Source: an uncultured Rikenellaceae bacterium
GTDB taxonomy: Bacteria; Bacteroidota; Bacteroidia; Bacteroidales; Rikenellaceae
NCBI GenBank assembly: GCA_946486375.1
Contig: CAMLTW010000001.1
Coordinates: forward strand, 372,001 to 436,000
Reading direction: 5' to 3'
DNA length: 64,000 nt
Shown here: positions 7,709-53,012 of the stretch, piece after piece
Numbering within the stretch: position 1 is the stretch's first letter
How the letters are laid out: every line of letters begins with the position of its first letter
Program-made: the position numbers and the translations under genes
The notes under the pieces: generated by a model
What the model was told of the DNA's origin: nothing
Seen by the model: the letters and a program-made list of their open reading frames with translations, nothing else
Databases searched by the model: none

Positions 7709-7767
7709 TTTGAACGGCCTTTTCGCCGGAAAAGGAAAAAGTTTCCGACAAAAGCAAACAGGGCCGG

Positions 7768-13466: not shown

Positions 13467-13472
13467 CCTTCG

Positions 13473-14351: not shown

Positions 14352-14417
14352 GCGGGACGGCGAAAAGCGTATCGGCTTGTTTTACGGTTCCCGGAAGGGA
14401 AATTCTAATCTTTTTCT

Positions 14418-14454
14418 AATCCCGGAAAGACGGAAAGTTTTTCCGGGATTTTTT
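14418..14454 (+). terminator. Rho-independent terminator
   Basis: An 11-bp stem (AATCCCGGAAA / TTTCCGGGATT), loop of 11 nt, then a run of T. It ends the dipeptidase-ApbE transcript. Confidence 0.85.
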
Positions 14455-14497
14455 AATTTTGAACACGTTAACCCAATGTAATCCAAAACTGACAGGC

Positions 14498-27711: not shown

Positions 27712-30153
27712 ATGAAAAGAAATTTCTTGATGGGGCTCGCGGGAGTTGCTCTCCTGTTGACGGGTTGCCAGAAAGGAGAGGGGATTTTCCAGCGTCCCGT
27801 TATCGACGAAGGGGAAGCGGATGCCCACATCACCATCAACGTGGATGGGAACATGATTACGACCTATTCTCCGGCGAGCGAAGATGAAAATCTGGTGCGG
27901 AATTACGACCTGTTCATTTTCGACCAGGCTACTGGACTGTTGGAAGTATATAGAAAGGATATTGCTGCGGCCGGATACGATCCGAACGGACAGAATGCTC
28001 AGGTGGACGAACAGACCGTGAAGGTGCCGACGGGCGGTGCGAAGGCGGTTTACGCCATTGCCAACCGGACGAAAACCGACGGCGCAGCGTCTCCGGTGGA
28101 AATCAACAAGATTGCCTATCCGGAACTGGTGACTACCAAGGATGCGGCAGATGATCCTACCAAGACGGCGACCAAAAAATCCGATTTCCTGTCGGCGGTG
28201 AAGGCTTCGTTGAAAGCCAATGCGGCGATTTTCGAAGTGCCGGTTTCGCCGTTCGTAATGCTCGGTTCCGCTTCGGTGAACGACATCGCCAATCAGAAGG
28301 TGTCCGTTACGCTCTCGCGTCAGGTGGCCAAGCTGGACGTGGTGAACGAAAATCCTTGGGATGGAAGCCAGGGGCTGACTGTGACCTCGGTTCAACTGAA
28401 GCATGTGCCGACCGAACAGTACCTGTTGAACCGGAATTACGATGCGCTGGTGCCGGTTTTCGGAGACTATGCGGCGATTACCGAAGGGTTCCTGACTCCT
28501 TCGGCCAGCGCGGAAGACAAGACCATTCTGAAGGACAAGATTTACCTGTTCTACACGCCTTCAACCAAGACGCTGGACAAGGATTACCAGATCGAAGTGG
28601 TGGTGAAAGGGAAACTGGACGGCAACGGTACCACCGGAACGGACTATGAAGGATCGTTCTACATCACCAACGCCATCAACCCCAATTATCACTACAAGCT
28701 GTTGCTCAAGTACAACGACGAGTCGGTGAGCCAGAAAGTGACCGCCAGCCTGGTGGAAGCCTGGACGGACGGGGATGCGATGAATGCCATGGTAGGGGCC
28801 GTGACCTTGACGGGGGCTCAGTTGGCGGCCAATACGCTGACTTATCCGTTTACGGCGGAATCCAATTATGGGTATGAACTCACTTTTAATACCGATTCCA
28901 AACAGCCGGCTGAACATGAATGGGTGACCGATGCCGCCGGTACGGCGACGACTACCGCTCCGGGATGGGTGGATGTAACCATCGATCAGGATCTGCGGAC
29001 GATCACCGTCAAGACGATCACCGACAACAACAGCAATGACCGGGTGGCCTACCTGCGCATTAAAGCCGGTTCATCCAAGGCGAAAGTCGTTACCATCAAC
29101 CAGATGGGTGCGGCAAGTGCGACCTCCACGATGTTCAACGGTTTGAAGTGGATGAACTATAACCTGGGTGCGACGCTGCCGTGCGAAGAAGCGAACATGG
29201 ACAACTCCGGTACCTACGGGTATTATTACCAGTGGGGTCGGAACCTGCCGTTCCCGACGCTGGGCAACAAGGTTCAGGAAACCGCTGTCGACGGGCCGCT
29301 GGATAAGGCCGGTGTGCTGGATGCGAACTCGAAAGGGTTGTTCATCAAGAATTCGACTTCTCCGTACGACTGGTTTACCAAACCGAACGGCGAGCCTGCT
29401 AACTGGAAGGCCCGCGATAAGGAAATCAACGACGGCGAGGGTACGGAACCTGCTCCGACCGGATGGCGTTTGCCGACCGACTATGAAATCCGCGCCATCA
29501 TGCCGAGCACGTCTGCGCTGGGTACGTGGAATTCCGATGCGGTTTCGGTAACGGACAATGTGACCAACGAAGTGCTGGATGCGACCGGTACGCAGTACAA
29601 GGCGCATTACCTGCGGAGCAAGTATTGCGTGTACGGGATCAAGAAGCAGGGTACTGCCGATGCGTATATGCTGAAGTGGGAGTACAAGCTGATGAACGGC
29701 AAGCGTTACCTGAAGATTACGAAGAAGACGGTAGGTGCCGATGCTTCGTTGTCCGGTATGGACGCCGCTACGGCTGCTGATGCTTTATTGGCTGGAGGTA
29801 CGCAGGAGGAAGTCCTCTTCTTCCCGACTGCGGGCTTCCGGCTCGATTCGTCGGGAGCGTCGATGAGTATCGGTTCCAACGGATACTTTTGGTCGTTATC
29901 GCCTTTCGGCTCGGATGCTATGTATCTGTTAATCGATGACGGTCGGCCGTGCTTGTTCGCGTATTACCGTACCAGGGCTTTTTCATTGCGTTGTGTCCAA
30001 GCGTTTGCGCGGCTTCTCTGGTTTCGGGTCGATCTTCTTCCCGTCTGGGGGGTATCGCCACTACGGTTCGGGAGCGCTGACATACGTCGGTTTCGAAGGG
30101 TATTGTTGGCCTTCTGTGCCGTCGGGTTCCATCGGTTTAAGACTGGGCTATAA
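27712..30153 (+). CDS. fimbrial tip-like lipoprotein with C-terminal FISUMP/C-type-lectin variable domain (expressed copy)
   Basis: 813 codons. Lipobox in MKRNFLMGLAGVALLLTGC. Residues ~30-360 are Mfa-like (LSRQVAKLDVVNENPWDG). About 365-470 is a BACON-like beta domain ending KVVTINQMGAA. About 475-763 is a FISUMP domain (MFNGLKWMNYNLGATLPCEE, GWRLPTDYEIRAIMPS). The last part, residues 703-763 (FFPTAGF to SLRCVQ), is the variable cassette. After RCVQ no stop follows: translation continues about 50 residues through the linker and into the next cassette in a shifted frame, ending at 30153. That tail is probably dispensable. This is the only cassette joined to a start codon and an export signal, so it is the expression site. 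Confidence 0.85.
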   Translation: MKRNFLMGLAGVALLLTGCQKGEGIFQRPVIDEGEADAHITINVDGNMITTYSPASEDENLVRNYDLFIFDQATGLLEVYRKDIAAAGYDPNGQNAQVDEQTVKVPTGGAKAVYAIANRTKTDGAASPVEINKIAYPELVTTKDAADDPTKTATKKSDFLSAVKASLKANAAIFEVPVSPFVMLGSASVNDIANQKVSVTLSRQVAKLDVVNENPWDGSQGLTVTSVQLKHVPTEQYLLNRNYDALVPVFGDYAAITEGFLTPSASAEDKTILKDKIYLFYTPSTKTLDKDYQIEVVVKGKLDGNGTTGTDYEGSFYITNAINPNYHYKLLLKYNDESVSQKVTASLVEAWTDGDAMNAMVGAVTLTGAQLAANTLTYPFTAESNYGYELTFNTDSKQPAEHEWVTDAAGTATTTAPGWVDVTIDQDLRTITVKTITDNNSNDRVAYLRIKAGSSKAKVVTINQMGAASATSTMFNGLKWMNYNLGATLPCEEANMDNSGTYGYYYQWGRNLPFPTLGNKVQETAVDGPLDKAGVLDANSKGLFIKNSTSPYDWFTKPNGEPANWKARDKEINDGEGTEPAPTGWRLPTDYEIRAIMPSTSALGTWNSDAVSVTDNVTNEVLDATGTQYKAHYLRSKYCVYGIKKQGTADAYMLKWEYKLMNGKRYLKITKKTVGADASLSGMDAATAADALLAGGTQEEVLFFPTAGFRLDSSGASMSIGSNGYFWSLSPFGSDAMYLLIDDGRPCLFAYYRTRAFSLRCVQAFARLLWFRVDLLPVWGVSPLRFGSADIRRFRRVLLAFCAVGFHRFKTGL
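29818..30000 (+). repeat. cassette 0: variable-domain cassette at the expression site
   Basis: It starts at the box TTCTTCCCGACTGCGGG (FFPTAG) and ends at TTGCGTTGTGTCCAA (LRCVQ). It has the same boundaries and length (~183 bp) as the silent cassettes that follow. The peptide includes IGSNGYFWSLSPFGSDAMYLL, the pattern G-S-x-G-x-x-W-S seen in DGR-type variable regions. The next cassette begins about 33 bp later. Confidence 0.85.
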
Positions 30154-33100
30154 CGGTTCGTACGTATGTTTCGTCGAGAACTATCGCTCGATCGGCTTCA
30201 ACCTGCGTTGTGTCCAAGAATTTGCGCGGAAACTGTTTCGGGAGAGTTTCTTCCCGTCTGTGGGGTACCTTAATTATCCGTCGGGGGAACTGAGGACTGT
30301 CGGTTCCAGCGGGTTCTGGTGGTCGTCGTCCGTTCTCGCGTACGATGGCGGCTATCTGTCTGTTACGTCATCCCAGATCTGCCTGCAGTTCTATGCGCGT
30401 GCGAATGGCATTCCGGTGCGTTGTGTCCAAGCGTTTACAGGCTCTGTTTCGGGATTCTTCTTCCCGTCTGCGGGGTGCCGGCATAGCGTGTCCGGAGCGC
30501 TGGAGTATATTGGTGCGGATGGCGATTGTTGGTTGTCTTCCGTTTCCGGATCCTCTGCTTTTCGTATGTTTTACGATGGGGCGTCTTTGTACCTCGGGGC
30601 CTTGACTCGCACTCGCGGTTATTCGTTGCGTTGTGTCCAAGCACTTGCATGGAATCTGTTTCGGGATGGATTCTTCCCGTCTGCGGGATACCGTCATCGG
30701 GATACGGGAGAGGTGTCGGGTGTCGGTCCCGTCGGGGGTTTTTGGTCGATATCCGTTTTGGAGTACGATGCCGGCTACCTGTCTACTACGTCGGTACAGC
30801 TCTGCCTTCAGTTCTATGCGCGTGCGAATGGCCTTATGGTGCGTTGTGTCCAAGCGTTTACGGATTCTGTTTCGGGAGGATTTCTTCCCGACTGCGGGGT
30901 ACCGTCACCGTGAAACGGGAGCGCAGGCGGGCGTCGGTGTCGAAGGGATTTTCTCGTCTTTCTCCGTGTCCGGGACTTACGGCTGGCATCTTTATTTTCA
31001 CGGTGCTTATGCGTGCCTCAATGCACTCAGTCGTACGTTCTGCTTTCCGTTGCGTTGTGTCCAAGCATTTACACGTTCTGTTGCGGAATGGCCTTCTTCC
31101 CGTCTGCGGGGCTTCGCCTCCGGGAGACCGGAGCGTTGGCGGGAGTCAATACCAGCGGATATTATTGGTCGTTGTCGCCTTCGGGGACGAATGCCCGATA
31201 CATGGAGTTTCACGGTTCGTCTTCAGTTGTCGGTACGAGTGCCCGTTCGATCGGCTTTCCGTTGCGTTGTGTCCAAGCGTTTGCGGATTCTGTTTCGGGA
31301 TGGATTCTTCCCGTCTGCGGGGTATCTTCCCCGGGATACGGGAGTTCTGACGGGCGTCGGTTCCTGGGGGCAGTGCTGGTCATCTTCACCGATGGGTAGC
31401 GATGCTTGCTATTTGGAGTTACAGCCCCCTACGGGTTACTTGCGGATTTTCTCTCGTTCGTATGCCTTTCTGTTGCGTTGTGTCCAAGCGTTTACGGGTT
31501 CTGTTTCGGGAAGGTTTTCTTCCCGTCTGCGGGGCTTTGCTACCGGGAAACGGGAGCGCCCGCGAACGTCGGTTCCAATTGTTACGCATGGTCTTCATCG
31601 CCTTCGGGGACGGTTGCCCGGAATGCGGAGTTTCACGGTTCGTATGTGGTTCTCGGCTCGAATAGCCGTTCGAGTGGTTTTTCGCTGCGTTGTGTCCAAG
31701 CGTTTACGGGTTCTGTTTCGGGAGGGTTTCTTCCCGTCTGCGGGGCTTTGCCTCCGGGATACGGGAGCGCTGACGAATGTCGGTTCCGAAGGAAACGTTT
31801 GGTCTTCGATGCGTGAGGGCACGTACGGTTTCCGGTTGATTTTCAACAGCGCGTTTACGGCTTCCAACGGAACGAACCGTTCGTACTGCTTTCCATTGCG
31901 TTGTGTCCAAGCGTTTGCAGATTCTGTTTCGGGAGAGCTTCTTCCCGTCTGCGGGGTACCGGTACCGGATATCGGGAGCACTGGCGAGCGTCGGTTCCGA
32001 AGGGTATTTTTGGTTGTTGCCACCTTCGGGCTGGAATTCGCACTTACTGTTCTTCAGCTCGTCCCATGTGTACCTCAATGGGTCGTACCGTACGCATGGT
32101 TTTTCGCTGCGTTGTGTCCAAGCACTTGCAGGCTTCTGTTTCGGATCGGTCTTCTTCCCGGCTGCGGGGTTCCGTCCCCGGGATACGGGGGCGCTGGCGA
32201 GTGTCGGCTCCGAAGGGATCGTCTGGACTGCTTCGCCTTCGGAGGCTTCTGGCCGGTTCCTCGATTTCCTCGGTTCTTACGTATGCTTTCAAATGAGTGG
32301 CCGCCGTGCGAGTAGTTGTTCGTTGCGTTGTGTCCAAGAACTTGCATGGATTCTGTTTAGGGAAGGTTTCTTCCCGTCTACGGGTTACCGACACTATACG
32401 ACGGGAGCGCTGCCGAGCATGGGTTCTCTGGGGTACTTTTGGCCGTTGTCGCCTGCGGGTGCGAATGCGTATTTCTGGTGTTTCGGTTCGTCCGGCGTAT
32501 CCCTCACTACGGCGTACCGTGCCTATGGCCTGAGTTTGCGTTGTGTCCAAGCGTTTACGGATTCTGTTTGGAGATGGTTTCTTCCCGTCTGCGGGGGTTC
32601 GATACCGTGAGACGGGATTGCTGTCTGCTGTCGGTTCCACCGGGTATTATTGGTCGTTGTTGCCTTTGGATACGAATGCTCGGTACCTGTGTTTCGGTGA
32701 CTCCGATCTGTGTATGCGGTCATACTCTCGTTCAAGCGCATTTCCGTTGCGTTGTGTCCAAGCGTTTGCGGATTCTGTTTCGGGACGGTCTTCTTCCCGT
32801 CTGCGGGGTATCGGCATTACCGTACGGTAGTGCTGATGGCTGCCGGTTCCGAAGGTGCCTTTTGGTCTGCGATTCAGGTTGGTTCGGACGGCTTTCGATT
32901 GGTGTCTCATGATATGTTTGCGGCTTCTAACGGGACGTATCGTGTAATCGGCATACCGTTGCGTTGTGTCCAAGAATTTGCACGGCATTTGTTTCAGGCC
33001 GATTTTCTTCCCGTCTGCGGGGTACCGGTATTGTGCGACGGGAGCGCTGACGGATGTCGGTCTCAATGGCTATGCTTGGTCTTCGTTACCTTTGGATTCG

Positions 33101-36100
33101 GGAAGTGCCCGGTTCCGATTTGTCGATTCCGATGTCGCCTTTAGCAGCCTCCAACGTTCTTACGGTTTTCCGTTGCGTTGTGTCCAAGCGTTTGCAGGTT
33201 CTGTTTCGGGACGGTCTTCTTCCCGTCTGCGGGGTACCTTTATTACACGATGGGGACATTGTCGTTCGTCGGTGCGGTGGGATCTTTCTGGTCAGGGCTT
33301 TCGGGAGGAACAGACGCGTTTCGTCCGCGTTTTGCAGATGACAGCGTTATTGTGGGTACGATGTTGCGTGCTTACGGTTTTCCGTTGCGTTGTGTCCAAG
33401 AACTTACTCGGAATTTGTTTCGGTTGGGTTTTCTTCCCGTCTGCGGGGTTCCGGCATTATTCGTCGGGAGCACTGACGAGCGTTGGTGCCGGCGGGTATC
33501 TTTGGTCGACGTTTGTTTCCGATTGCGATGCGGGCTATCTCTACTTTAGTTCTCCCTATGCCTATCTGCAGTTTTATTCGCGGGGTTACGGCTTATCGTT
33601 GCGTTGTGTCCAAGCGTTTGCAAACTCTGTTGCAAGGAACTTCTTCCCGTCTGCGGGGAGCCTGCCTCGGGATACGGGAGCGCCGACGGGAATCGGTTCT
33701 AACGGTTACGGTTGGTCATCGGTGTCTGAAGGTGCGAGTGGTTATCGTTTTCTTTTTTACGGTGCTTTCGCCGCCTCTTATGACTCTCCCCGGTCATACG
33801 GTTTAGCGTTGCGTTGTGTCCAAGCGTTTGCAAACTCTGTTGCAAGGAACTTTTTCCCGCCTGCGGGATATCGTCGAGCTGGTGGCGGAGAATTGTCGAG
33901 CGTCGGTTCCTGGGGCGAGTATTGGGCGTCTTCTCCGATAGGAGCTGAAGGCTGTTATTTGGAGTTGCAGCCCACTGCGGGTTATTTGCGGATCAACTAT
34001 CGAGCGTTCGCATTTTCGTTGCGTTGTGTCCAAGCGTTTGCAGATTCTGTTTCGGGAAGGTTTCTTCCCGTCTGCGGGGCATCGGCACTACGCGACGGGA
34101 ATAATGACGAGCGTTGGTTCCGTTGGGCTATGCTGGTCTTCGGTACCGTCCGGTTCCAATGTTGTCAGATTGGGCTATGATGACGGGGGTGTTTGTTACT
34201 ACGCGCTCTATCGTACGGGAGGCTTTCTGTTGCGTTGTGTCCAAGAACTTGCACCGAATCTGTTTCTGGAGAGAGTTTTTTCCGTCTGCGGGGTTCCGGT
34301 GCTATTCGTCAGGAGTGCTGTCGAGCGTCGGTTCCGAAGGAGACTGCTGGTCTTTTGTTCCGTCGGGTTCCATGGGTGTAAGTTTGAGTTATTTCAGTTC
34401 CTGCGTTTGTTTCGGCGTGTATGGGCGTTCGTATGGTTTCAGTTTGCGTTGTGTCCAAGAACTTGCATAGAATCTGTTTGAGATCGTCCTTCTTCCCGTC
34501 TGCGGGGCATCGGCACTACGCGACGGGAATAATGACGAGCGTTGGTTCCGTTGGGCTATGCTGGTCTTCTGTACCGTCCGGTTCCAATGTTGTCAGATTG
34601 GGTTATGACGACGGGGGCGTTTGTTACTACGCGCTCTATCGTACGGGCGGCTTTCTGTTGCGTTGTGTCCAAGCGTTTACGATTCTGTTTCGGAATGGCC
34701 TTCTTCCCGTCTGCGGGGTACCGTAGTACTGCCACAGGAGCACTGTCGAGCACCGGCTATGTCGGTTGTTATTGGTCGCTTTGGCCTTCGGGGACGTATA
34801 CCCTGTATCTGTATTTCGGTGGTACCGAGGTGTATTTGTTGTCGTACGCTCGTGCAAATGGCTTTGTTTTGCGTTGTGTCCAAGCGTTTGCGGATTCTGT
34901 TTCAAGAGGGTCTTCTTCCCGTCTGCGGGGCTTCGCCTCCGGGAGACGGGAGCGTTGTCGGGTGTCGGTTCCTACGGGTATTATTGGTCGCTGTCGTCTT
35001 CGGGGACGAATGCCCGGAATGTGGGGTTTCTCGGTTCGTCTTCGGTTGTCGGTACTAGTGCCCGTCCGATCGGCTTTTCGTTGCGTTGTGTCCAAGCGTT
35101 TACGGATTCTGTTTCGGAATGGCCTTCTTCCCGTCTGCAGGGTACCGGAGCAATACGGGGGGAATGCTGGCGTACGTCGGTTCCGAAGAGTACTGCTGGT
35201 CTTTTGTTCCGTCGGGTTCCGGTAGTGTGAGACTGGGCTATAGCGGTTCGTACGTTTGTTTCAACGCGACCTATCGTGCGTTCGGCTTTGCGGTGCGTTG
35301 TGTCCAAGAATTTGCACGGCATTTGTTTCGGGACGGTTTTCTTCCCGTCTGCGGGGCTTCACGGCAGCAGTGCGGGAGCACTGACAGACGTCGGTTTCAA
35401 TGGATACGGTTGGGCATCTTCGTCTTTGGGCTTGTATTCGTACTTCTTGTATGTCTACTCGTCCGGCGTATATATCGGTGCTACGAGCCGTGCGCACGGC
35501 TTTGCGTTGCGTTGTGTCCAAGAATTTACGGGTTGTTCGGGAGCACTTCCCGTCTGCGGGGCATCGTTCTTATGCGACGGGAATGCCGGCAGATGTCAGC
35601 ACCTGGGGGTATTTTTGGTCATTGTCGTCTTCAGGTTCGCATCCGTGCTTCCTGTACTTCAATTCGTCCTACCTGTGCTTCAGTACGACAGCCCGTTCTT
35701 ACGGTTTTACGGTGCGTTGTGTCCAAGCGTTTGCAGAATTCTGTTTTGGGGATGGTTTCTTCCCGTCTGCGGGGTTCCGGCGCTATTCGTCAGGAGTGCT
35801 GTCAAGCGTCGGTTCCAACGGTTATGCCTGGTCATCGTCGTCTTCGGATCCGCATGCCTGGACTGTTGAGTTTCATGGTTCTTATACGGTTCTCGGGTCG
35901 CTTTTCCGTGCGTTCGGTTTTACGTTGCGTTGTGTCCAAGCATTTACACGTTCTGTTGCGGAATGGCCTTCTTCCCGTCTGTGGGGTTGTGCCACCGGGA
36001 GTCGGGAGCGTTTGTGAATGTCGGTTCCAGCGGATATTTTTGGTCGTCGTCCGTTTCAATGCCGTATTCCTGGTGGTTGGAGTTCCAGGGGGCGTACGCC

Positions 36101-39100
36101 TACGTGCGCGCGAGTAACCGTACGAACGGCTTTACAGTGCGTTGTGTCCAAGCATTTGCACGGAATCTGTTTCGGGATGAATTTTTTCCCGTCTGCGGGG
36201 ACCCTGCACTATTCGACAGGAGCGCTGACGCTTGTTGGTTCTGTCGGTTATTCCTGGTTATCGATGTCTTGGGATATGAACTCGTGTTTCTTGTCCATTG
36301 GCACCTCTTTTGTGTACCAGGGGCCGACATTCCGTTCGAGCGGTTTCAGCTTGCGTTGTGTCCAAGAAATTACATGGGGCGGTTTTCTTCCCGTCTGCGG
36401 GTTTCCGGAACGATACGACGGGAGCGCCGGAGTACGTTGGTACGGATGGTGATTATTGGTTGTCTTCCGTTTCCGGGTCGGTTGCTCCGCATCTGTTTTT
36501 TGATGCTGCGAGTTCGTATGTGCGTGGCTATCGTCGTGCCCGCGGCTTCGGTTTGCGTTGTGTCCAAGAACTTGCACGGAATCTGTTTCGGGATGATTTT
36601 CTTCCCGCCTGCGGGGTATCGTTTCAGCACGTCGGGAACGTTGGCAGTCGTCGGTTCCGAAGGTCATGTTTGGTCTTCGCTTCTTTCGGGTACGAGCAGT
36701 TGTCGGCTTGCTTTCCGCAGTGTTGGCGTAGGTTCCGACGGGGTGGTTCGCGCGTATGGTTTTATTTTGCGTTGTGTCCAAGAAATTACATGGGGCGGTT
36801 TTCTTCCCGTCTGCGGGGTACCGGAGCAATACGGCGGGAACGCTGGCGAGTATCGGTTCCAATGGTTATGTTTGGGTCGCTATTATTTCGTCGCCGAATG
36901 CTCCGGGCCTGTTTTTTGACAGCGCGAATTCGTATTTGAGCAGCCATTTTCGTTCCCGCGCTTGTGCGTTGCGTTGTGTCCAAGAACTTGCACGAATCTG
37001 TTTCCGGATAGTCTCTTCCCGTCTGCGGGGTATCGGAGCAATACGGCGGGAACGTTGGCGAGTATCGGTTCCAATGGTTATGTTTGGGTCGCCGTTATTT
37101 CGTCACCGAATGCTCCGGGCCTGTTTTTTGACAGTGCGAATTCGTATTTGAGCAGCCATTTTCGTTCCCGCGCTTGTGCGTTGCGTTGTGTCCAAGCATT
37201 TGCACGGATTCTGTTTCGGGAAAGCTTCTTCCCGTCGTCTGCGGGGTACCGTCGCTACAGTTCGGGAGTGCTGTCGAGCGCGGGTTCCGAAGGGTACTGT
37301 TGGTCTTCGATGCGGTTGACTGCCGATGGTGTAACACTGGTCTCTATCGGTTCGAGCGTTTGTGTCAGTTCAAGCTACCGTACCAGCGGCTTCATGTTGC
37401 GTTGTGTCCAAGAACTTGCACGAATCTGTTTCCGGATAGTTTCTTCCCGTCTGCGGGGTTTCGCGACCGCGTTACGGGAGCGCGGGGGATTGTCGGTACC
37501 GACGGTGACATCTGGTCTTCCGTCGTTTCAGGTGTGCACGGTTACCGGTTGATATTCTATGGTGCGACCGTTTGCGGTGCAGGAACGGACCGTACGTACG
37601 CTTTCAACTTGCGTTGTGTCCAAGTATTTACGAGTTCTGTTTCGAGAAGGGTTTCTTCCCGTCTGCGGGGTATCGTCGCGGCACTTCGGGTGAATTGTCG
37701 AGTGTCGGTTCGAGCGGTTACGCTTGGTCTTGGTTGACTTCAGGCGCAAGCACCCTATGCATAGAGTTTCATGCTTCGTATGCTGTCTTCGGCGTTGGCT
37801 ACCGTTCGTTCGGTTTCATTTTGCGTTGTGTCCAAGAACTTACATGGAATCTGTTTGGGGGACGGCTTCTTCCCGTCTGCGGGGTTCCGGCATCATTCGT
37901 CGGCGGTGCCGACGAATGTCGGTTCCAATGGGTATGTTTGGTCGTTGTCCCCTTCGGGTACGTCTTCGTCCTTCTTGTACTTTGGCTCGCCCAATGTATA
38001 CTTTACTTCGGTATACCGTGCGTTCGGTTTCATTTTGCGTTGTGTCCAAGAACTTACATGGGATCTGTTCGGGGATGGTTTCTTCCCGGTTGCGGGGTTC
38101 CGGAACAATTCGACGGGAGCGTCGACGACTGTCGGTGCCAATGGTTATTATTGGTCGTCGTCCGTTTCGGCGCAGTACTCCTGGTGGTTGGAGTTCCAGA
38201 GCTCGTATGCCTTCATGTACGCGTACAGTCGTTCGCGCGGTTTTGCGTTGCGTTGTGTCCAAGCGTTTACAGGCTCTGTTTCGGGATGGTTCTTCCCGGC
38301 TGCGGGGTATCGCAGCCGGGAGGCGGGAACGCCGTCTGCTGTCGGTTCCAACTGTAATGTCTGGTCGTCGTGCGTTTCCGGTACTGTTGCAGGGTATGCC
38401 TATTTTAGCGATCCTGTTGTTTGTCTGCAGTTCGGATCGCGTGGTTACAGCTTATCATTGCGTTGTGTCCAAGCGTTTACAGGCTCTGTTTCGGGATTCT
38501 TCTTCCCGTCTGCGGGGTATCGCACGCTTGAGACGGGAACGCAGGTGAGTGGCGGTTCCTGGGGCGTATACTGTGCTTCTTCTCCGATGGGAATTAGTGG
38601 ATGCTATTTGGAGTTGCAGCCTGCTACGTGTTATTTGCGGTTCAACCATCGGTCTTTCGGCTTTTCGTTGCGTTGTGTCCAAGCGTTTACAGGCTCTGTT
38701 TGCCGGGAGGTTTTCTTCCCGTCTGCGGGGTATCGGCACATTGCGTCGGGCACGCCGACGAATGTCGGTGCTGAAGGTTTTGTCTGGTCTCCGATCTGCG
38801 TGGATGCGAGTGGTTTCCGATTAGTCTTTAATCGTTCGTTAATTGCTTCGGAGGGCTCATACCGTGCGTTCGGTTTCAGTTTGCGTTGTGTCCAAGAATT
38901 TGCACGAAATCTGTTTCGGGATTCTTCTTCCCGTCTGCGGGATACCGTATTAATACGACGGGAGTGTCGGTGAGTACCGGTTCCAATATTTGTTGCTGGT
39001 CGTCGGCTCCCTTGCTCACGAGTTCGGCTTTCTTGTTCGCGTATTCATCCGGTGTGTCTTGCAATCTGTCGCATCGGGTAAGCGGTTTTGCGTTGCGTTG

Positions 39101-43913: not shown

Positions 43914-44528
43914 TCGTTCTTCCGGTCTGCGGGGTATCGTCATCGGGACCCGGGAGCGCTGACGAGCGTCGGCTCCAACGGTTATGCCTGGTCATCGGCC
44001 CTTTCGGGTACCACGGCCCGGCTCGTGGAGTTTCACGGTACGTACGCGGTTGATGGTACGAGCCATCGTTCGAATGGTTTTACAGTGCGTTGTGTCCAAG
44101 CATTAACGAACTGGTTTCCGGAAGTCCTCTTCTTCCCGTCTGCGGGGTACCGCATACGTGAAACGGGAGCGCTGACGAATGTCGGTTCCTACGGATGCTG
44201 TTGGTTGGATTCCGCTTCGGAGGTCAGTGCTTATCGGATGGTTTTCAGCGGTGTCGATGCCTGTTTCCATTCGACTGCCTGTGCTTTCGGTTATTCGTTG
44301 CGTTGTGTCCAAGCGTTTACATGTTCTGTTGCGGAACAGCCTTCTTCCCGTCTGCGGGGTACCGGCATAACACGTCGGGAGTGCTGACGAATGTCGGTGC
44401 CAGCGGGTTCTGTTGGTCGTCGTCCGTCTCCGGAAGCGATGCTGGCTATCTGTACATGGGATCGGCCAACACCTATCTGCAATTCAACCTGCGTGCGAAT
44501 GCCCTTTCGTAGCGTTGTGTCCAAGGAT
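43914..44528 (+). repeat. silent cassette array, block 2 (3 cassettes)
   Basis: Closing boxes at 44087, 44300 and 44512. The first cassette keeps RSNGF before VRCVQ. The third has a stop codon at its end (TCGTAG before CGTTGTGTCC), the only such loss I found in the array. Confidence 0.88.
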
Positions 44529-44584
44529 TTACAGTCCGTTCCGAAGAGGTGGGAAGTCCCTTATTCTTGAAAGCAGTTTCCGAA

Positions 44585-44735
44585 TCCTGAGTTCCGTCCG
44601 GTTACGGCCTGCGGAAGAGAGATCGTAAATTCAGCAGCCCGCTGATGGAAACCGGTTGTGGGTTTTCGTCAGCTATCATCGGTTTCGGGAATAACCGGTT
44701 TCGGCCGTTTTTTCCCGAAGCACACAGCGGTTGCT
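44585..44735 (+). ncRNA. array leader element L1
   Basis: Hairpin with TTCCGT (44592-44597) pairing GCGGAA (44611-44616) around a GGTTACGG loop, then CGTAAATTCAGCAGCCC. A folded middle has 10-bp arms GAAACCGGTT / AACCGGTTTC. CAGCGGTTGC (44725-44734) comes just before block 3. Same order as L2-L6. Transcription is not shown; RNA nature is inferred from compensatory changes among copies. Confidence 0.5.
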
Positions 44736-46390
44736 TATTTTTCCGTCTGCGGGACACCGACACCGTGAGAGGGGAGCGCTGACGAATGTTGGTTCCAACG
44801 GTTATTACTGGTCGTTGTCTGTTTCGACCCAGTACTCCTGGTGGTTGGAGTTCCAGGGGGCGTACGTCTGCATGAACGCGAACAGTCGTTCGAACGGCTT
44901 TCCTGTGCGTTGTGTCCAAGAACTTGCACGGATTCTGTCTGGGCTGACCTTCTTCTCGTCTGCGGGTTTTCGGCATTCAGCGACGGGAGCGCTGACGAGC
45001 GCGGGTTCCGAGGGTCGTTTCTGGCTCGCTGTTTCATCGGGAGCCGGTTCTGTACGGATGGGGTTCGACGGTGCCGGTTTGTCGTTTATCGACATTCACC
45101 GTACGTTCGGTTTCAGTTTGCGTTGTGTCCAAGCATTGACAGGAGTGGTTTCGGGATGACTTTCTTCCCGACTGCGGGGAACCGGAACCACTCGACGGGA
45201 GTGCTGTCTTCCGTCGGTTCCGGCGGCTATTTCTGGTTGCCGTGCGTTTCCGGAAACGATGCCGGTTATGTGTACATCGATGGCACCCGTCTTTTCCTGA
45301 ATTTCAACGCACGCACGCTGAGCTTTCCGTTGCGTTGTGTCCAAGAAATTACGGATTGTTTCGGAGACTTCCCGTCTGCGGGGTACCGCGTCAACACCAC
45401 GGGAGCGCTGACGAACGTCGGTTCCGGCAGTTATCTCTGGTCGCTGTCGCCTTCGGGTACGGGTGCTTACCGTTTGTATACCGGCTCGTCCGATCTGTTC
45501 CTTAATACGACGAATCGTTCGAATAGCTTTCCGTTGCGTTGTGTCCAAGAAATTGCGGATTGTTCCGGAAACTTCCCGTCTGCGGGGTGTCGTCATAATA
45601 TGACAGGAGTATTGACGAACGTCGGTTCCGAAGGGGATGTCTGGTCTTCGATGCGCGAGAGCACGCTCGGTCTTCGGTTGATTTTCAGTGGTGCGTTTGC
45701 GACTTCTTACGGCACGAATCGTGCGTTCGGTTATCCGTTGCGTTGTGTCCAAGCGTTTATGACTTGTTCCGGGATGGCTCTTTCCGTCTGCGGGGCTTCG
45801 ATACCGTGATACGGGAGCGATGACGCTCGTCGGTTCCGAAGGGTTCATCTGGTCTTCGGCATGTGAGGGTACGAACGGTTTTCGATCGATTTTCAGCGGT
45901 GCGTTTGCGACTTCTTACGGCACGGGTCGTGCGTTCGGTTTTCCGTTGCGTTGTGTCCAAGCGTTTATGGGGTTTGTTTCGGGATGACTTTCTTCCCGGC
46001 TTCGGGGTACCGTCATCGGGATACGGGAGCGCTGACGAACGTCGGTTCCGAAGGGAACGTCTGGTCTTCGATGCGCGAGGGCACGAACGGTTTTCGGTTG
46101 ATTTTCAACGGCACGTTAACGGCTTCCAACGGTACGAACCGTGCGAACTGCTTTCCGTTGCGTTGTGTCCGAGCATTTATGGGTTTTGTTTCGGGAAGGT
46201 TTCTTCCCGGCTGCGGGGTACCTCGACTATCCGACGGGAGCGTTGACAGGCATCGGTTCCAATGGACCTTGCTGGTCTTCTTGTGTATCGGGTGCCAGCG
46301 GTTCTTATTTGGATTTTACCGCTTCCCGTGTCAATCTCGCTTCCTTTAGCCGTGCGTACGGTTTCATGGTGCGTTGTGTCCGAGCATTTA
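44736..46390 (+). repeat. silent cassette array, block 3 (8 cassettes)
   Basis: Closing boxes at 44907, 45120, 45332, 45535, 45740, 45948, 46160 and 46371. Some linkers are shorter than in block 1 (for example after 45332 and 45535). The last two cassettes end CCGAG (Arg) in place of CCAAG (Gln). The first cassette carries MNANSRSNGF. Confidence 0.9.
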
Positions 46391-46453
46391 GCTTGTTTGC
46401 AGCCGAAGGAAGAAGGAAATGTGAGAGTCGATTCCGGAAACAGCAATCACAAC

Positions 46454-46604
46454 CGTGAGTCCCGTCGTGTTACGGCCGACGGGAGAGAGGTTCGTAAATT
46501 CAGCAGCCCGCTGGTAACGGACTGTGTCTGTTTATCAGCAAGGATTCGTTCCCGGAAAACCGTCTTGCCGGATGTTTTTTCCGGGAAAATGTCAGTGGTT
46601 GCTT
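46454..46604 (+). ncRNA. array leader element L2
   Basis: Stem TCCCGTCG (46460-46467) / CGACGGGA (46477-46484), loop with GTTACGG. Then CGTAAATTCAGCAGCCC, a folded middle with 11-bp arms TTCCCGGAAAA / TTTTCCGGGAA, and CAGTGGTTGC at 46593. The stem differs in sequence from L1 but stays paired. Block 4 starts about 85 bp after the CAG motif, further than in other leaders. Confidence 0.5.
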
Positions 46605-46685
46605 TACTTTTTCAGACATACCGGTTCTTATCGTGGCCGTGCCGGGTGTATTTTGAGGCATTTCCATGAGAAGTTTGGCGAAACC

Positions 46686-47705
46686 CGGTTCCATCTGCGG
46701 GGAACCGGTATTACACGACGGGAGCGCAGACGAACGTCGGTTCCAATGGTCCGTGCTGGTCTTTTTCTGCGACGGGGTGTACGGTTGGTATCTCGATTTC
46801 TACGGTTCTTACGCGTTCCTCAATGCGGGTAGTCGGGCTTACGGCTTGCTTGTGCGTTGTGTCCAAGAATTTGCATGGATTCAGTCAGGGCTCGGTCTTC
46901 TTCCCGTCTGCGGGGTTGTGCCACCGGGAGTCGGGAGCGTTTGTGAATGTCGGTTCCTATGGTTATTATTGGTCGTCGTCCGTTTCGATGCCGTATTCCT
47001 GGTGGTTGGAATTCCAGGGGGCGTACGCCTACGTGCACGCGAGCAGTCGTTCGCTCGGCTTTGCGGTGCGTTGTGTCCAAGCGTTTATGACCTGTTCCGG
47101 GAAACTTTTCCGTCTGCGGGGTTCCGGAGCTCCGATGCCGGTGTGGTGGCAGGTGTGGGTTCCCAGGGCGTCATTTGGTCGTTTGCCCTTTCGGGCGGCG
47201 ATGGTTCCCGGCTGGTGTTCCTCGGCTCATACTCCTGTCTTTCGGCAGTGAATCGTACGTTCGGCTTCGGTTTGCGTTGTGTCCAAGAAGTTACATGGAT
47301 GGTTTTTCTTCCCGTCTGCGGGTTTTCGGGCCACCACGACGGGAGTGCCGACGGGTATCGGTTCCGACGGCCGTGTCTGGTCTTCGTCGCCTTCGGGGAC
47401 GAACTCTGGCCTGCTGTATTATAATTCCGGTTCTGCGTACTTCAATACGGGCGGTTACCGTACGAATTGTTATTCGTTGCGTTGTGTCCAAGAAACTACA
47501 TTTCGTTCCGGAGATACTTCCCGTCTGCGGGTTGCCGTCACGATACGTCGGGAGAGTCGGTGTATGCCGGTTCCGCTGGTTATGTTTGGACGTCTGTTGC
47601 TTTGTCTGCGTTTGTTCCGCATCTGTTTTTTGATGCTGCGAACTCGTATTTGCATGCTTATCGCCGTGTTCGTGCCTATTCCTTGCGTTGTGTCCGAGCA
47701 TTTGC
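46686..47705 (+). repeat. silent cassette array, block 4 (5 cassettes)
   Basis: Closing boxes at 46854, 47068, 47274, 47479 and 47685. The second cassette is a near copy of one in block 1 (closing box 36139), differing mainly in variable codons. The last cassette ends CCGAG. Confidence 0.9.
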
Positions 47706-47775
47706 AGAATCGGTGAAGCGTTTCGGTTACGGAGTGCCTGGAAAGTGAGCGGAAAAGCTTCCGGAAGAAATCGAA

Positions 47776-47947
47776 ACCCGGAGTTCCGTCAGGTTACGGC
47801 CTGCGGAAGCGTGGTTCGTAAATTCAACAATCCACTGGTTTCCTGAGCCGGAGAAGGCATCGACCTTCCGGCTGAAATTAGTTATGTCGAGATGCCGTAC
47901 GGGTTTGTTTCCTCATATCCCCGTACCGTTTCATACAGAGATTGTTT
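47776..47947 (+). ncRNA. array leader element L3
   Basis: Stem TTCCGT (47784-47789) / GCGGAA (47803-47808) extended by AGG / CCT with one bulged C, loop TTACGG. Then CGTAAATTCAACAATCC. The middle can pair GGCATCGAC with GTCGAGATGCC and GTACGGG with CCCGTAC. CAGAGATTGT at 47936 abuts block 5. About 95 bp are nearly identical to L5, so the two share a recent origin. Confidence 0.5.
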
Positions 47948-49805
47948 TTTATTCCCGTCTGCGGGGTATCGCCACAACAGTTCGGGAGCGCTGACGAACA
48001 TCGGTTCCGAAGGGAACTGCTGGTCTTTTGTTCCGTCGGGTTCCAGTAGTGTAAGACTGGGTTATAACGGTTCGAACGTTTGTTTCAACGCGAACAATCG
48101 TACGAACGGCTTCAGTTTGCGTTGTGTCCGAGCGTTTATAGGTTTGTTTCGGAGCGGCTTCTTCCCGACTGCGGGTACCCGTCATCGGGATACGGGGGCG
48201 CTGGCGTACATCGGTTCCGAGGGGTATTGCTGGTCTTCCGTGTCATCGGGCTCCGGTGGCGTAAGATTGGGTTATATCGGTACGGACGTTTGTTTCATCG
48301 TCTTCCATCGTTCCAATGGTTTCAGCTTGCGTTGTGTCCGAGTATTTACGGGTGTTGTTGCGAAGCGCTTCTTCCCGGCTGCGGGGTATCGCCACAACGG
48401 TTCGGGAGCGCTGTCGAACGTCGGTTCCGGCGGGTACGTGTGGTCGTCCTGCGTTTCACGTTACGATGCAGGTTATCTGAATTTCAACGGCCCCAACGTC
48501 TATCTGCAATTCAATTCGCGCGGTTACGGCTTGTCGTTGCGTTGTGTCCGAGAAATTACGGGTTTGTTCCGGGAAGTTTTCCGTCTGCAGGGTACCGTTC
48601 TTACACGTCGGGAGCACTGTCGAGCGTCGGTTCCGGCGGGTACGTATGGTCGTCCCGTGTTTCGGGTCTCGTTGCGGGCTGTGTGAATTTCAATTGGGCC
48701 AGCGCTTATCTGCAATTCGATTCGCGCGGTTACGGCCTGTCGTTGCGTTGTGTCCAAGCGTTTACGTTTTTTCGATCTGCCTTCCCGTCTGCGGGGTACC
48801 GGTACTGTACAACGGGAGCGCTGACGAACGTCGGTTCTTTCGGGGAGTTCTGGTCGTCTTCTCCGGTGGGCACCGATGCCTGCTATTTGGAGTTGCAGCC
48901 TGCTGCGGGGTATTTGCGGGTCTACCTTCGAACGTATGCATTTTCGATGCGTTGTGTCCAAGCATTTGCGGATTTTCGTTCCAGGAGGTTTCTTCCCGTC
49001 TGCGGGGTATCTGGATCGTGCGTCGGGATCGCAGGCGAGTGTCGGTTCCGAAGGGTATTGCTGGTCATCGTTCCCTTCGGGCACCAGTGCGGTGTTCCTC
49101 AATTTCGACGGTTCCACAACCTGGCCTTATGTCGGTTCTCGTGGCGCGGGCCGTTCGATGCGTTGTGTCCAAGGATTTGCAAATTTGGTTTCAGGATGTT
49201 TTCTTCCCGTCTGCGGGGTACCGGGAACATGGTTCCGGAGCGCATTCGGCGGTCGGTTCTTCGTGTTACTATTGGTGCGGAGACGCTGCCGGTACCGCTG
49301 CCCGCTATCTGGTTGCTGTCGGTTCGGCTGCGATGTTGGGCGATGCCAGCTACAGGACGGAGTGTCGTTCGTTGCGTTGTGTCCAAGAAGTCACATGGAT
49401 CGGTTTTCTTCCCGTCTGCGGGGTACCTGGATCGTTCGTCGGGAGCGCTGTCGAACGTCGGTTCCAACGGGTATTTTTCGTGCTCGTCTCCTTCGGGTTC
49501 GGATGCCTGGCGTCCGCGCTTTGCCGGCGACAACGCCAACATAGGAGCTGCGAACGGTCGTACTTACGCTTTCGGCGTGCGTTGTGTCCAAGAAGTTACA
49601 TGGATCGGTTTTCTTTCCGTCTGCGGGGCGCCGTGTATTCGATGCGGGAGCGCCGACGAATGTCGGTTCCGAGGCTTTTGGCTGGTCTTCAGTTGCTTCG
49701 GCTCCGTCTTCGTCGTATTTGGCCTTTCACGGTTCGGGCGTGTATTTCGCTACGACCGGTCATCGTGCGAATGGCTTTCCGTTGCGTTGTGTCCAAGTAT
49801 TTATG
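47948..49805 (+). repeat. silent cassette array, block 5 (9 cassettes)
   Basis: Closing boxes at 48119, 48329, 48539, 48745, 48949, 49160, 49374, 49579 and 49784. The first cassette reads FNANNRTNGFSLRCVR, the most asparagine-rich end in the array. The first three cassettes end CCGAG. Confidence 0.9.
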
Positions 49806-49856
49806 TCGGGAAAACGAGGGGAGTTTTTTCGATCCTTTCTCTCGAACGATTCTCAT

Positions 49857-49996
49857 ATCCGGAGTTCCGGCAGGCTACGGTCGCCGGAAGTGCGATGGTA
49901 AATTCAGCAGTCCGCTGGTTTCTTTACGGGATTTCCAGCTAAGGCGATCGGCTTGGTTTGGCTTTCTCACCATGCCGCTGTTTTCAGTGGCTGCTA
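49857..49996 (+). ncRNA. array leader element L4
   Basis: Stem TTCCGGC (49865-49871) / GCCGGAA (49883-49889): the U-G pair of L1/L3 is a G-C pair here. Loop contains GCTACGG. Then GGTAAATTCAGCAGTCC, and CAGTGGCTGC at 49985 shortly before block 6. Confidence 0.5.
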
Positions 49997-50002
49997 TCCG
50001 TG

Positions 50003-50617
50003 CATCCCGTCTGCGGGGAACCTGTACTATACGACGGGATCGCTGTCCGCTGTCGGTTCGGAGGGGCAACTCTGGAGTGCGTTTTCTTCCGGGGCTTATG
50101 CCTGTAACCTGGGGGTTCGTTTCGCGGATGTGTTCCTGAATACCGGCGGCTACCGTGCCAACGGTCGATTGTTGCATTGTGTCCAAGCGTTTACAGGTTT
50201 GTTTCGAAGGGATTTCTTCCCGTCTGCGGGTTTTCGCGATCGCCTTTCGGGAGCGCTGTCGAACATCGGTTCCAACGGGTATTTTTCGTGCTCGACTACT
50301 TCCGAATCCGATGTCTGGCGTCCCCGGTTTGTCAGCGATAATGCCAGCCTGGGCACTGCAGGCGGTCGTGCTCATGCTTTCAGCATGCGTTGTGTCCAAG
50401 CGCTTACAGATTTGTTTCGGGGAAATTTCTTCCCGTCTGCGGGATATCGGGACAACGGTTCGGGGAGCCCGGCGAGCGTCGGTTCCGGCGCTTACTTCTG
50501 GACGGATTCGGTTTCGGGTACCAGTGCCGGATATATCTATGTTAACTCGTCCTATGCCGGTATGAATTCCTATACCCGTTCGAACGGCTTTCCGTTGCGT
50601 TGTGTCCGAGCATTTGC
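50003..50617 (+). repeat. silent cassette array, block 6 (3 cassettes)
   Basis: Closing boxes at 50174 (GCATTGTGTCC, so Arg is His here), 50387 and 50597. The last ends CCGAG. Confidence 0.88.
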
Positions 50618-50691
50618 AAAATCGGTGAAGCATTGTTCCGGAAACGGAGCATGGGGAGAATAAGCGGAAAAGCTTCCGGAAAAAATCGAAA

Positions 50692-50851
50692 CCCGGAGTT
50701 CCGTGAGGCTACGGCCTGCGGAAGCGTGGTTCGTAAATTCAACAATCCACTGATCGCGGATCCGAACAGGTCGGATCGCGGTTAGTTAAAGTTTTCCTGC
50801 GCAGGCCGACTGGCCTGTTTTCCTGTCGCAGGCACTGTTCAGCGATTGTTT
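50692..50851 (+). ncRNA. array leader element L5
   Basis: Stem TTCCGT (50699-50704) / GCGGAA (50718-50723) extended by AGG / CCT, loop CTACGG. Then CGTAAATTCAACAATCC. The middle has GATCCGA / TCGGATC and nested CTGCG(CAGGCC / GGCCTG)CGCAG hairpins. CAGCGATTGT is at 50840, just before block 7. Confidence 0.5.
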
Positions 50852-50852
50852 T

Positions 50853-52490
50853 TATCATATTCCGTCTGCGGGGCATCGTAGCTACGCCACGGGAGCGCTG
50901 ACCTACGTCGGTTCCAATGGGTACTTTTGGTCCGTGTTGCCTTCGGGTTCGCTTTCGTACTTCATGTACGTCAACTCGTCCAACATGTATCTCGGTGCTA
51001 CGAATCGTGCGAACGGTTTTCCATTGCGTTGTGTCCAAGAAATTACGGATGGTTCCGAAGCGCCTTCCCGTCTGCGGGGAATCGGCCTTATCCGACGGGA
51101 ACGCTGTCGAATATCGGTTCCGAGGGAAATTTTTGGTCTTCCGTTGTTTTGGGTACGCTCGGTTATCGGTCGTTATTTTACGGTCTGGGCGTTGGTATTA
51201 CTGAGGCAGGTCGTACGAATAGCTTTCCGTTGCGTTGTGTCCAAGAAATTGCGGATCGTTCCGAAGACTTCCCGTCTGCGGGGAACCGGCATTTCTCGAC
51301 GGGAGCGCTGACGAACGTCGGTTCCGAAGGGAACATCTGGGTTTCCACCCTTTCGGGTACTACCGGTTACCGGTTGATATTCTGCGGTCCGACCATTTGC
51401 GGTGCAGAAGCAGGGCGTACGAACGGCTTCCCATTGCGTTGTGTCCAAGCATTTGCGGATTATTCCGGAACCTCCCGTCTGCGGGTTTTCGGATCAATAC
51501 GACGGGAGCGCTGACGAGCGTCGGTTCCGAGGGACGACTCTGGAGTACGGTTTCTTCCGGGGCTTATGCCTGTGGCCTGATGTTTCGTTCAGCGGATTCG
51601 TTCTTGAGTTCCGGCGGTAACCGTTCCGACGGTCGATTGTTGCGTTGTGTCCAAGCGTTTACGGTTTTGTTTCAGGAAGCTTCTTTTCGTCTGCGGGTTA
51701 CCGTCACCGTGAGTCGGGAACGCCCACGAATGTCGGCTCCGAAGGCGAGGTTTGGTCTTCGGGGCGTGAGGGCGCGAATGGTTACCGGTCGATTTTCTTT
51801 AGTGTATTCACGGCTTCCAGCGGAGCGGCTCGTACACTCGGTTTTTCGCTGCGTTGTGTCCAAGCATTTACGGATTATTCCGGAAGCCTCCCGTCTGCGG
51901 GGTTCCGTCGCTTCGATTTGGGGGTGCTGTCGAACTTCGGTTCCGAAGGATACTATTGGTATTCTATACCGTCGGGTTCCGGCAGTGCGACATTGGGCTA
52001 TATCGGTTCGAGCGTTTGTTTCAGCGCGAGTCACCGTTCGGGCGGTTTTTCGTTGCGTTGTGTCCAAGCATTTACGGGTTATTCCGGAAGCCTCCCGTCT
52101 GCGGGGTACCGCTACCGGGAAACCGGAGGGTTGGCGTCGGTCGGTTCCATGGCTTTGTATGTGACCGGTGTTCCTTCCGGCTCGCAGTGCATGGTGATCG
52201 ACTGCGAAAGCCCGTACGTATGTTTGTACGCCGCTGCCCGTACCAATGCTCGTTTGTTGCGTTGTGTCCAAGTTTTTACAGGTTCGTTTCGGAAGGATTT
52301 CTTCCCGTCTGCGGGTTTCCGTACACGTGATACGGGAGCGTTGTCCGCTGTCGGTTCCAACGGTTACGCGTGGTCGGCGGGTTATGAGGATGCGAGCGGG
52401 TTCCGGATCGTCTTCGACGGTACGTTTTTGGCTTCCTCCGGTTCGACCCGTGCGCACGGGTTTGTCTTGCGTTGTGTCCGAGCGTTTACG
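50853..52490 (+). repeat. silent cassette array, block 7 (8 cassettes)
   Basis: Closing boxes at 51026, 51232, 51436, 51642, 51851, 52055, 52259 and 52469. Linkers after 51026, 51232 and 51436 are short. The first cassette ends TNRANGFPLRCVQ. The last ends CCGAG. Confidence 0.9.
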
Positions 52491-52668
52491 TTTTTCCGGA
52501 ATGAAAAAAGACAAGAAATCGGGTATTTGAGTCGGAAATGGCGTCTTTTCGGGAGGGCGGCGTCGAAATAAAGGGTATGTTTCATGAGAAATATTCTTTA
52601 TTTTTGTGCGCTTCCCGGCCCGGAGAAGGCGAAGATCGGCTTTTGGGACAAGATACAGTTCTGTCGAA

Positions 52669-52826
52669 GCCCGGAGTTTCGGCGGCCACGGCTGCCGGGA
52701 GGGAGGTTTGCAGATTCAGTGGCCCACTGATCGGTGAAGGGGATAGAGGAAGAGATTCAGTTAGAGCAGGATTTCGATCCGTTTACCGGACGGTATCCGG
52801 TGAAGAAATCGTTTCAGCGGCTGCGG
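52669..52826 (+). ncRNA. array leader element L6
   Basis: Stem TTTCGGC (52677-52683) / GCCGGGA (52694-52700), again with changed but paired bases, loop with CCACGG. Then GCAGATTCAGTGGCCCACTG, where CAGTGG / CCACTG is a perfect inverted repeat. CAGCGGCTGC at 52815 precedes the single cassette that sits beside the RT gene. This is the most divergent leader. Confidence 0.5.
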
Positions 52827-52827
52827 A

Positions 52828-53012
52828 AACGGCCTGCGGGTTACCGTCACCGTGAGTCGGGAGCGCCGACAAGCGTCGGTTCCAACGGGTATTATTGGTC
52901 GTTGTCGCCTTCGGGAACGAATGCTCTGTACCTGTATTTCGGTGGCCCCGATATGTATGTGCCGGCGAACAACCGTACGAACGGCTTTGTTTTGCGTTGT
53001 GTCCGAGAATCT
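52828..53012 (+). repeat. block 8: single cassette next to the RT gene (template-repeat candidate)
   Basis: Its peptide runs from GYRHRESGAPTSVGSNG through YYWSLSPSGTNALYLYFGG and YVPANNRTNG to the closing VLRCVR box at 52994. It stands alone after leader L6 and 27 bp before the RT start, the usual position of a template repeat in diversity-generating retroelements. It has asparagine (AAC/AAT) codons where others vary. It is the best TR candidate, but differences from cassette 0 are not confined to adenines. Confidence 0.7.

Follow-up and report, generated by a model that had tools for sequence, protein, structure and literature searches.

A 64,000-nt stretch of contig CAMLTW010000001.1 (assembly GCA_946486375.1, an uncultured Rikenellaceae bacterium), hereafter the window, carries the gene of a likely pilus-tip adhesin, 101 further copies of the variable unit at the C-terminal part of that gene, and the gene of a reverse transcriptase (RT). 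Judged by its sequence, the locus is derived from a diversity-generating retroelement (DGR) and appears to combine several templates with a large library of slots. The explanation toward which we lean, by a modest balance, is a DGR in which error-prone copying of six template-type cassettes likely filled approximately 95 further box-bounded slots, the resulting library being predicted to feed the slot within the adhesin gene (cassette 0). Error-prone copying likely built the store because 101 varied copies, nearly all of them readable, occur together with a retroelement-type RT beside a likely adhesin gene. An initial annotation of this DNA had already read it as a DGR-type locus with silent cassettes, and that link is borne out by the RT, the template leaders and canonical relatives; it was incomplete in overlooking the six template-type cassettes, the tandem templates of relatives and the unfound Avd. 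The principal features are as follows.

27712..30153, + strand: likely pilus-tip adhesin gene, 813 codons, with a FISUMP-like domain that includes cassette 0 (sub-cut-off profile matches)
29820..30001, + strand: cassette 0, the sole cassette in a gene with an N-terminal part; in frame, LRCVQ end
30037..43563, + strand: cassettes 1–64, leaderless; open cores at regular ∼212-bp spacing
43919..53007, + strand: cassettes 65–101, six leader-bearing (template-type) and 31 leaderless
53039..54328, + strand: DGR-type RT, 429 aa, with IGNLTSQ and YVDDF motifs (PF00078, 65.3 bits; PDB 8ub7 match)

The ATG of the RT at 53039, our choice of start in an open reading frame (ORF) that is open from 52895, lies 31 bp past the end of the last closing box, that of cassette 101 (c101). 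By sequence, the closest PDB entry is 8ub7 (E 1.6e-35), which we take to be the RT of the BPP-1 DGR, and the next is a maturase (6.4e-08). The IGNLTSQ and YVDDF motifs are common to the RTs of the window and of the related loci L019, L070, and L072 described below. No second RT copy was found in the genome (3.13 Mb in 33 contigs, rated 100% complete).

Architecture of the Cassette Array

Scanning the window with up to three mismatches yielded 102 copies of the closing box TGCGTTGTGTCCAAG, all on the + strand and none on the − strand, the first at 29987 and the last at 52993, with a median spacing of 212 bp; in seven of the 101 intervals the spacing rises to 390–537 bp. The 101 further same-strand copies at ∼212 bp that had been described earlier are thus confirmed. 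Genome-wide, with up to two mismatches, there were 102 forward matches and one reverse match, and a chance origin of the boxes was ruled out, as reading the pattern in reverse produced 1 and 1 matches vs. 102 forward. Within the box TTGCGTTGTGTCCAAG, 12 of 16 columns are identical in all 102 copies and 14 of 16 in 101 or more. None of the five TTGCGTTGTGTCCAAG codons varies at its third position among the 102 cassettes. The cores between boxes have a median pairwise difference of 50%. Of the fixed boundary boxes claimed for every unit, the near-invariant closing box stands, but the FFPS opening is missing from c101 and the 5′ half of c076 is degenerate. G+C content is equal in the array and outside it (0.544–0.545). 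An assembly error is unlikely, since the cores differ by ∼50% and the contig enclosing the array is 547,608 bp long.

Leader-Bearing, Template-Type Cassettes

The copies had been described as plain silent cassettes. This does not hold for c068, c076, c081, c090, c093, and c101, ahead of which stand the six occurrences of a conserved leader motif in the window:

44593..44735, + strand: leader of c068 (hairpin, GTAAATTCAGCAGCCCGCTG, stem partner); motif 0 mismatches, stem 11/11 pairs
46462..46603, + strand: leader of c076; motif 0 mismatches, stem 11/11
47786..47946, + strand: leader of c081; motif 0 mismatches, stem 10/11
49866..49995, + strand: leader of c090; motif 0 mismatches, stem 11/11
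50701..50850, + strand: leader of c093; motif 0 mismatches, stem 10/11
52678..52729, + strand: degenerate leader of c101; motif 3 mismatches, best stem partner inside the cassette
52830..53007, + strand: cassette 101, which occupies the template position immediately 5′ of the RT; 27 A, 5 AAN codons

Five of these six leaders form the stem (motif plus the segment before the cassette) at the usual place, and that of c101 does not. Across window and relatives, at least 10 of 11 pairs form in 71 of 85 units vs. 3.6% of shuffles, with some pairs altered on both sides (A-T/G-C swaps); the covariation is modest because arms exchanged between differing units pair nearly as well as a unit's own (9.70 vs. 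10.23 of 11). An ungapped search for the stem found nothing over shuffles (own 8.59, shuffled 8.66 of 12).

The six leader cassettes are richer in A than the others (26.5 vs. 21.4, p 5e-4) and in AAN codons (5.3 vs. 1.9, p 4e-5), and c081, with 34 A in its core, is the most A-rich cassette of all. Directed loss of A from these six to neighboring cassettes was significant (p 8e-5). Taken as templates, the six fit the other 96 cassettes better than 150/150 random sets of six when changes at A are free, and better than 146/150 when such changes cost the same as others. As a single template for all cassettes c101 was rejected: c013, the cassette that fits it best, still has mismatches at 28/125 non-A sites. 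The 354 bp ahead of c065 (43565-43918) carry no leader motif.

Related Loci: From Single Templates to Template Arrays

The window's genome is the sole representative of its genus among the genomes searched. With the window RT as query, 27 loci were retrieved from genome contigs; in a crude motif search, with many flanks short, FISUMP-type ends were seen in three of them (L019, L021, and L029), at most two per locus. L019 comprises a variable-region (VR) gene ending in RCVQE and a stop, accessory and Avd-like ORFs, a leader, a template rich in Asn and the RT, and in L021 a VR ending in RCVRD and a stop accompanies a template before the RT. The template lies directly 5′ of the RT in both, as c101 does in the window, and L019, L070, and L072 all possess a VR gene, accessory ORF, Avd, template(s), and RT.

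The cassette alignment matched 121 of 268 family genomes, the window's own included. Long stretches were examined from 17 family genomes picked for many or strong matches, and 12 of them (G139, G141, G015, G145, G012, G226, G143, G020, G225, G140, G224, and G201) hold 3–15 tandem cassettes beside an RT that is 49–59% identical to that of the window. No array with an RT was seen in the stretches examined from G219, G222, G198, G017, and G199; G222 has four tandem cassettes on a contig without an RT, and G017 one cassette beside an RT. Because tandem cassettes stand beside a related RT in 12/17 genomes, multi-template DGRs exist, and the window is the extreme case. The closing box is near-uniform inside a locus and differs from locus to locus. 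Cassette spacing in L069–L073 and L075–L078 is typically 400–450 bp (outliers 299–660 bp). In four examples of such arrays, leader motifs and cassettes number 10/11 (L069), 8/8 (L070), 13/14 (L072), and 7/11 (L071), and L019 has a single motif. In G226, an intermediate case, 10 cassettes without leaders (mean A 0.161) lie between five leader units (mean A 0.209).

The VRs of these loci diverge from their best template more strongly at A than at other sites, with mismatches at 28/40 A and 27/155 non-A sites in L070, 20/40 and 19/152 in L073, 21/41 and 40/154 in L072, 15/41 and 11/139 in L077, and 17/39 and 24/154 in L076, whose VR holds unknown letters; the VR of L071 consists mostly of unknown letters and was left out. 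Allowing the template to switch along the VR cut the non-A misfit by 3–7 sites in 5/5 loci, an improvement that may reflect extra freedom alone. Among viral contigs, the RT scan confirmed no relative and the tandem-box pattern had no match.

Further arrangements were seen in individual genomes. At L081 3580-5387 (G224), leaderless cassettes follow the RT; their 3′ flank is of the VR type, with a stop immediately behind the box, and differs from that of the window. This arrangement may represent a second way to grow an array. G198 (L083, L087, and other contigs) has at least 140 cassette matches, many of them ∼70-aa open frames, as dispersed cassettes. The template array of L078 (G140) occurs twice, at 4407-9600 and 12064-15611, with near-same cassettes, either a real duplication or an assembly effect. 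In L085 5687-7603 (G201), units of ∼314–323 bp stand beside units of ∼437 bp in one array.

Separate Histories of Cores and Spacers

Spacers were compared for 94 of the 101 intervals (20–35 bp), the seven too-long intervals being excluded. Spacer difference grows with distance along the array (rho 0.19, p 3e-36, for pairs that are not independent), from a mean of 0.376 between neighbors to 0.517 at 51 or more slots, and spacers 17/18, 5/28, 30/32, and 2/40 are identical. Core likeness is unrelated to distance (rho −0.002, p 0.86; 0.474 for direct neighbors, 0.489–0.501 for others), and no link was seen between a core and the spacer downstream (r −0.016, p 0.65) or upstream of it (r −0.033, p 0.77). 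The slots therefore likely multiplied by tandem duplication while their contents were replaced between two boxes. Tandem duplication alone was rejected for the cores and retained for the spacers. Integron-like movement, in which a cassette travels with its own recombination site, was rejected as cores are linked to neither spacer (an integrase was not sought).

Core lengths fall into one class modulo 3 in 100 of 102 cassettes, the exceptions being the degenerate c076 and c101, to which a default length was assigned as no opening box was recognized; the 94 spacer lengths split 32:31:31 by frame. A stop occurs in one of the 102 cores (c067), vs. 53.1 (sd 3.9) stop-bearing cores expected among 82 distinct pairs when substitutions are placed at random on the nearest neighbor, and codons with a single change were synonymous in 647 cases vs. 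457.7 (sd 19.9) expected; these pairs are not independent, and the selection could predate a core's entry into the array. Core readability is maintained and the spacers keep no frame; replaced cores and readable cores are the new findings here. The frame and stop tests support the earlier view of the cassettes as a used library and not debris.

In two of the five closest pairs, mismatches are concentrated at A (9/23 vs. 7/129 non-A for c029/c077; 11/23 vs. 10/129 for c006/c024), and a third, c074/c009, has a weak excess (6/30 vs. 14/122). Because the five are mixed in A bias, mutagenic copying and plain recombination both seem to have acted on the cores, and our guess from these five pairs is that plain recombination is the more recent.

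All 101 cassettes could alternatively be templates, each leader starting an RNA with a run of cassettes, so that the array would be a concatenated store of templates and not of products. To the eye, the spacers of the window and of G226 do resemble the 3′ flanks of templates rather than those of VR genes, and every leader heads a run of cassettes. We nevertheless consider this very improbable, given that leaderless cassettes are poorer in A, that c001–c067 have no leader ahead of them, and that cores are unlinked to their flanks.

Cassette 0 and the Likely Tip Adhesin Gene

The tip protein matches NCBIfam FimD_tip_adhes over residues 1–335 (51.7 bits, below the cut-off of 170) and, C-terminal to that region, Pfam PF09603 (FISUMP, Fib_succ_major; 25.5 bits, cut-off 33.9) and BACON (24.6 bits, cut-off 25). 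AlphaFold produced no usable model of the tip domain from four sequences (mean pLDDT 31.5), and a protein search with the domain returned three proteins, the window's own among them. The tip protein's cluster in the protein database (27712-30153) comprises six sequences, which may include other strains. Cassette 0 had been described as the last 61 residues of the adhesin's FISUMP domain: it is in frame within the gene, but the ORF continues for 50 codons past it, with no stop after the cassette, out of register and through the spacer into cassette 1. The 3′ flank of cassette 0 resembles that of templates and array cassettes. The locus presents one complete ORF with the array behind it.

Several observations weigh against the explanation we favor. 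Cassette 0 shares an exact core run of at most 15 nt with another cassette, against a median of 19.5 nt over all cassettes; its mosaic cost is 53 vs. a median of 43.5 (rank 85/102), its mismatches from c101 fall at 15/27 A and 39/125 non-A sites, and it lacks the VR-type 3′ flank with a stop that is seen in relatives. Among the template-type cassettes, the RT-proximal leader, that of c101, is degenerate; c076 shows no directed loss of A (79 vs. 82); and the leader stem appears only with one bulged base allowed, an idea that came from reading the units. The raw excess of mismatches at A is not larger for leader cassettes (here seven, c065 included; 0.48 vs. 0.25–0.32) than for the others (0.52 vs. 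0.29–0.37), and in that set of seven C and G show no excess and T is reversed. A bias alone proves little, because A is the rarest base and mismatch rates at A are high in all cassettes. The very closest pairs, c020/c022 and c033/c034, are without A bias. Finally, no Avd was matched in the window's genome with the Avd of L019, A2, or PF05635 as queries; PF05635 is a weak query, since it scores the true Avds of relatives under its cut-off.

No cassette beats c101 on non-A mismatch to cassette 0. The difference between template and expressed copy is here not confined to template adenines, the hallmark of a DGR, nor is the expressed copy a mosaic of array copies, the hallmark of silent cassettes. 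The absence of a donor-like core in the array speaks against recent one-way copying into cassette 0 with the donor left in place; the copying of an array cassette that had been envisaged earlier was accordingly not borne out in recent form. A cassette 0 with no donor would be compatible with reciprocal exchange or with a last event far in the past.

These results bear on the possibility that homologous recombination copies silent cassettes of the pilE/pilS or vlsE kind into cassette 0, with the RT incidental. One gene accompanied by copies that lack its N-terminal part would suit such a system, as would the readable cores and the near-identical cores with different flanks (c020/c022, c033/c034), which point to box-bounded, non-mutagenic copying. 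In Neisseria pilE/pilS, too, short fixed boxes flank variable cores, but no RT is known there and the copies are far fewer. The vlsE/vls locus of Lyme Borrelia likewise pairs one expression site with a contiguous array of cassettes; as first described, the array comprised 15 cassettes, ∼90% identical, with frameshifts and stops (PMC11499132). The window has 101 cassettes that are ∼50% different, with a stop in 1/102 and fixed boxes. Given this divergence, the DGR-type RT, the template leaders of six cassettes and the want of a donor-like stretch for cassette 0, we regard silent-cassette recombination with an incidental RT as unlikely.

State of the Diversity-Generating Machinery

With A2 as query, Avd was found in 9 of 11 relatives (E <1e-49) and not in G219 and G222. 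The VR genes of L019, L021, L070, L072, L074, and L077 stop 1–3 codons after the box, and a perfect hairpin is present in the VR flanks of 4/8 relatives. The window resembles the BPP-1 DGR in an RT related by sequence, a template adjoining the RT and signs of adenine-directed change, but BPP-1 needs Avd and is aided by a hairpin after the VR (PMC3240598, PMC12875486), and neither was found in the window's locus. When BPP-1 was rebuilt in Escherichia coli, inactivation of Avd cut repair to ∼1e-9 (PMC12875486; see also PMC3240598) and deletion of the inverted repeat severely impaired it (PMC12875486). Because Avd was not found here and BPP-1 repair depends on it, the mutagenic step may be off in this organism, or it may be served by another helper.

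Taken further, the same observations could describe a retired DGR, its array a relic of template duplication and its switching over. No Avd found, a degenerate RT-proximal leader, no VR-type flank and no recent donor for cassette 0 would all agree with this, and left-over target genes after DGR loss are reported for Treponema denticola (PMC4891356). The RT reading frame, however, is intact with its motifs present, the third codon positions of the box are identical in 102/102 cassettes, and stops occur in 1/102 cores vs. 53 of 82 pairs expected, which makes retirement decidedly unlikely in our judgment.

Proposed Mechanism and Implications

In the template-and-slot explanation that we favor, templates would be copied into cDNA by the RT with errors at adenines, and these cDNAs would replace the cores in array slots; the slots have the same box as cassette 0 and would themselves multiply by tandem growth. 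Ordinary recombination from box to box would copy cores unmutated, as the two near-identical pairs suggest, and would also be the route of a core into slot 0, whose reloading within the gene is a prediction. Given the unfound Avd and the degenerate leader next to the RT, mutagenesis may have ceased in this lineage, in which case the library would now be driven by recombination.

A broader reading, which we put forward tentatively as one possibility, is that a retroelement has turned into a writer of memory: adenine-mutagenized copies would be deposited in homing-box slots, and a selected store of approximately 100 slots would outlive the mutagenesis and be shuffled into the adhesin by recombination. 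If true, this would form a bridge between DGRs and silent-cassette antigenic variation. To our knowledge, known DGRs rewrite their target and retain no record of the product; here, approximately 100 readable binding sites, whether products or templates, are stored, and many relatives hold several templates together. If reloading of slot 0 were found among strains, a single bacterial system would unite random hypermutation with the storage of selected variants, and its relatives would allow the path between the two to be followed from single template through template array and mixed array to large library.

Comparison With Described DGRs

Type V tip pilins are diversified by DGRs in Bacteroides (Macadangdang et al., 2024, as cited in PMC12632263), and the window shares with these DGRs a DGR-type RT beside a tip-like adhesin with a variable C-terminal part. 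It differs in its six template-type and 95 leaderless cassettes, in that Avd was not found and in the apparent loss of the target flank; several relatives of the window also carry tandem templates. A 2019 survey (PMC6642488) includes a Pseudomonas DGR call with 6 template repeats (TRs) and 91 TR-VR pairs, with 21 merged VRs in one giant adhesin gene; unlike the window's cassettes, these are 97.6% identical, show few A changes and lie inside one ORF. Several VRs were reported for 271 of the 948 DGRs surveyed, 216 of the 271 having one TR and therefore presumably 55 having more, and tandem template arrays are not described in the excerpts of that survey. Nor does a DGR with a tandem template array or a cassette library of this sort appear in the excerpts of PMC8144416, PMC3521204, PMC10907252, and PMC4891356, or elsewhere in the literature searched, a search whose scope took in few subscription papers. 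Within that scope, the claim that no DGR with ∼100 tandem cassettes had been described is uncontradicted, the Pseudomonas 91-pair case being different in kind.

Neighboring Genes

The genes that adjoin the locus are as follows.

23709-25301: DUF3575 gene, upstream of the tip gene
25354-26322: DUF5119 gene, upstream of the tip gene
26483-27601: ORF without a family match, upstream of the tip gene
54264..55535, + strand: clostripain-family (C11) protease gene adjoining the RT (PF03415, 72.3 bits)

An Rfam scan of the window returned nothing at gathering level. Near the fimbrial genes, a 173-aa ORF (23139-23660) has a resolvase match that lacks the first 47 model positions. It is perhaps a regulator; a role as cassette shuffler is unlikely, as the Pfam match begins at model position 48 of 145. 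A surface clostripain has been reported to process type V pilins (PMC12632263), and by analogy the C11 protease beside the RT perhaps takes part in pilin processing.

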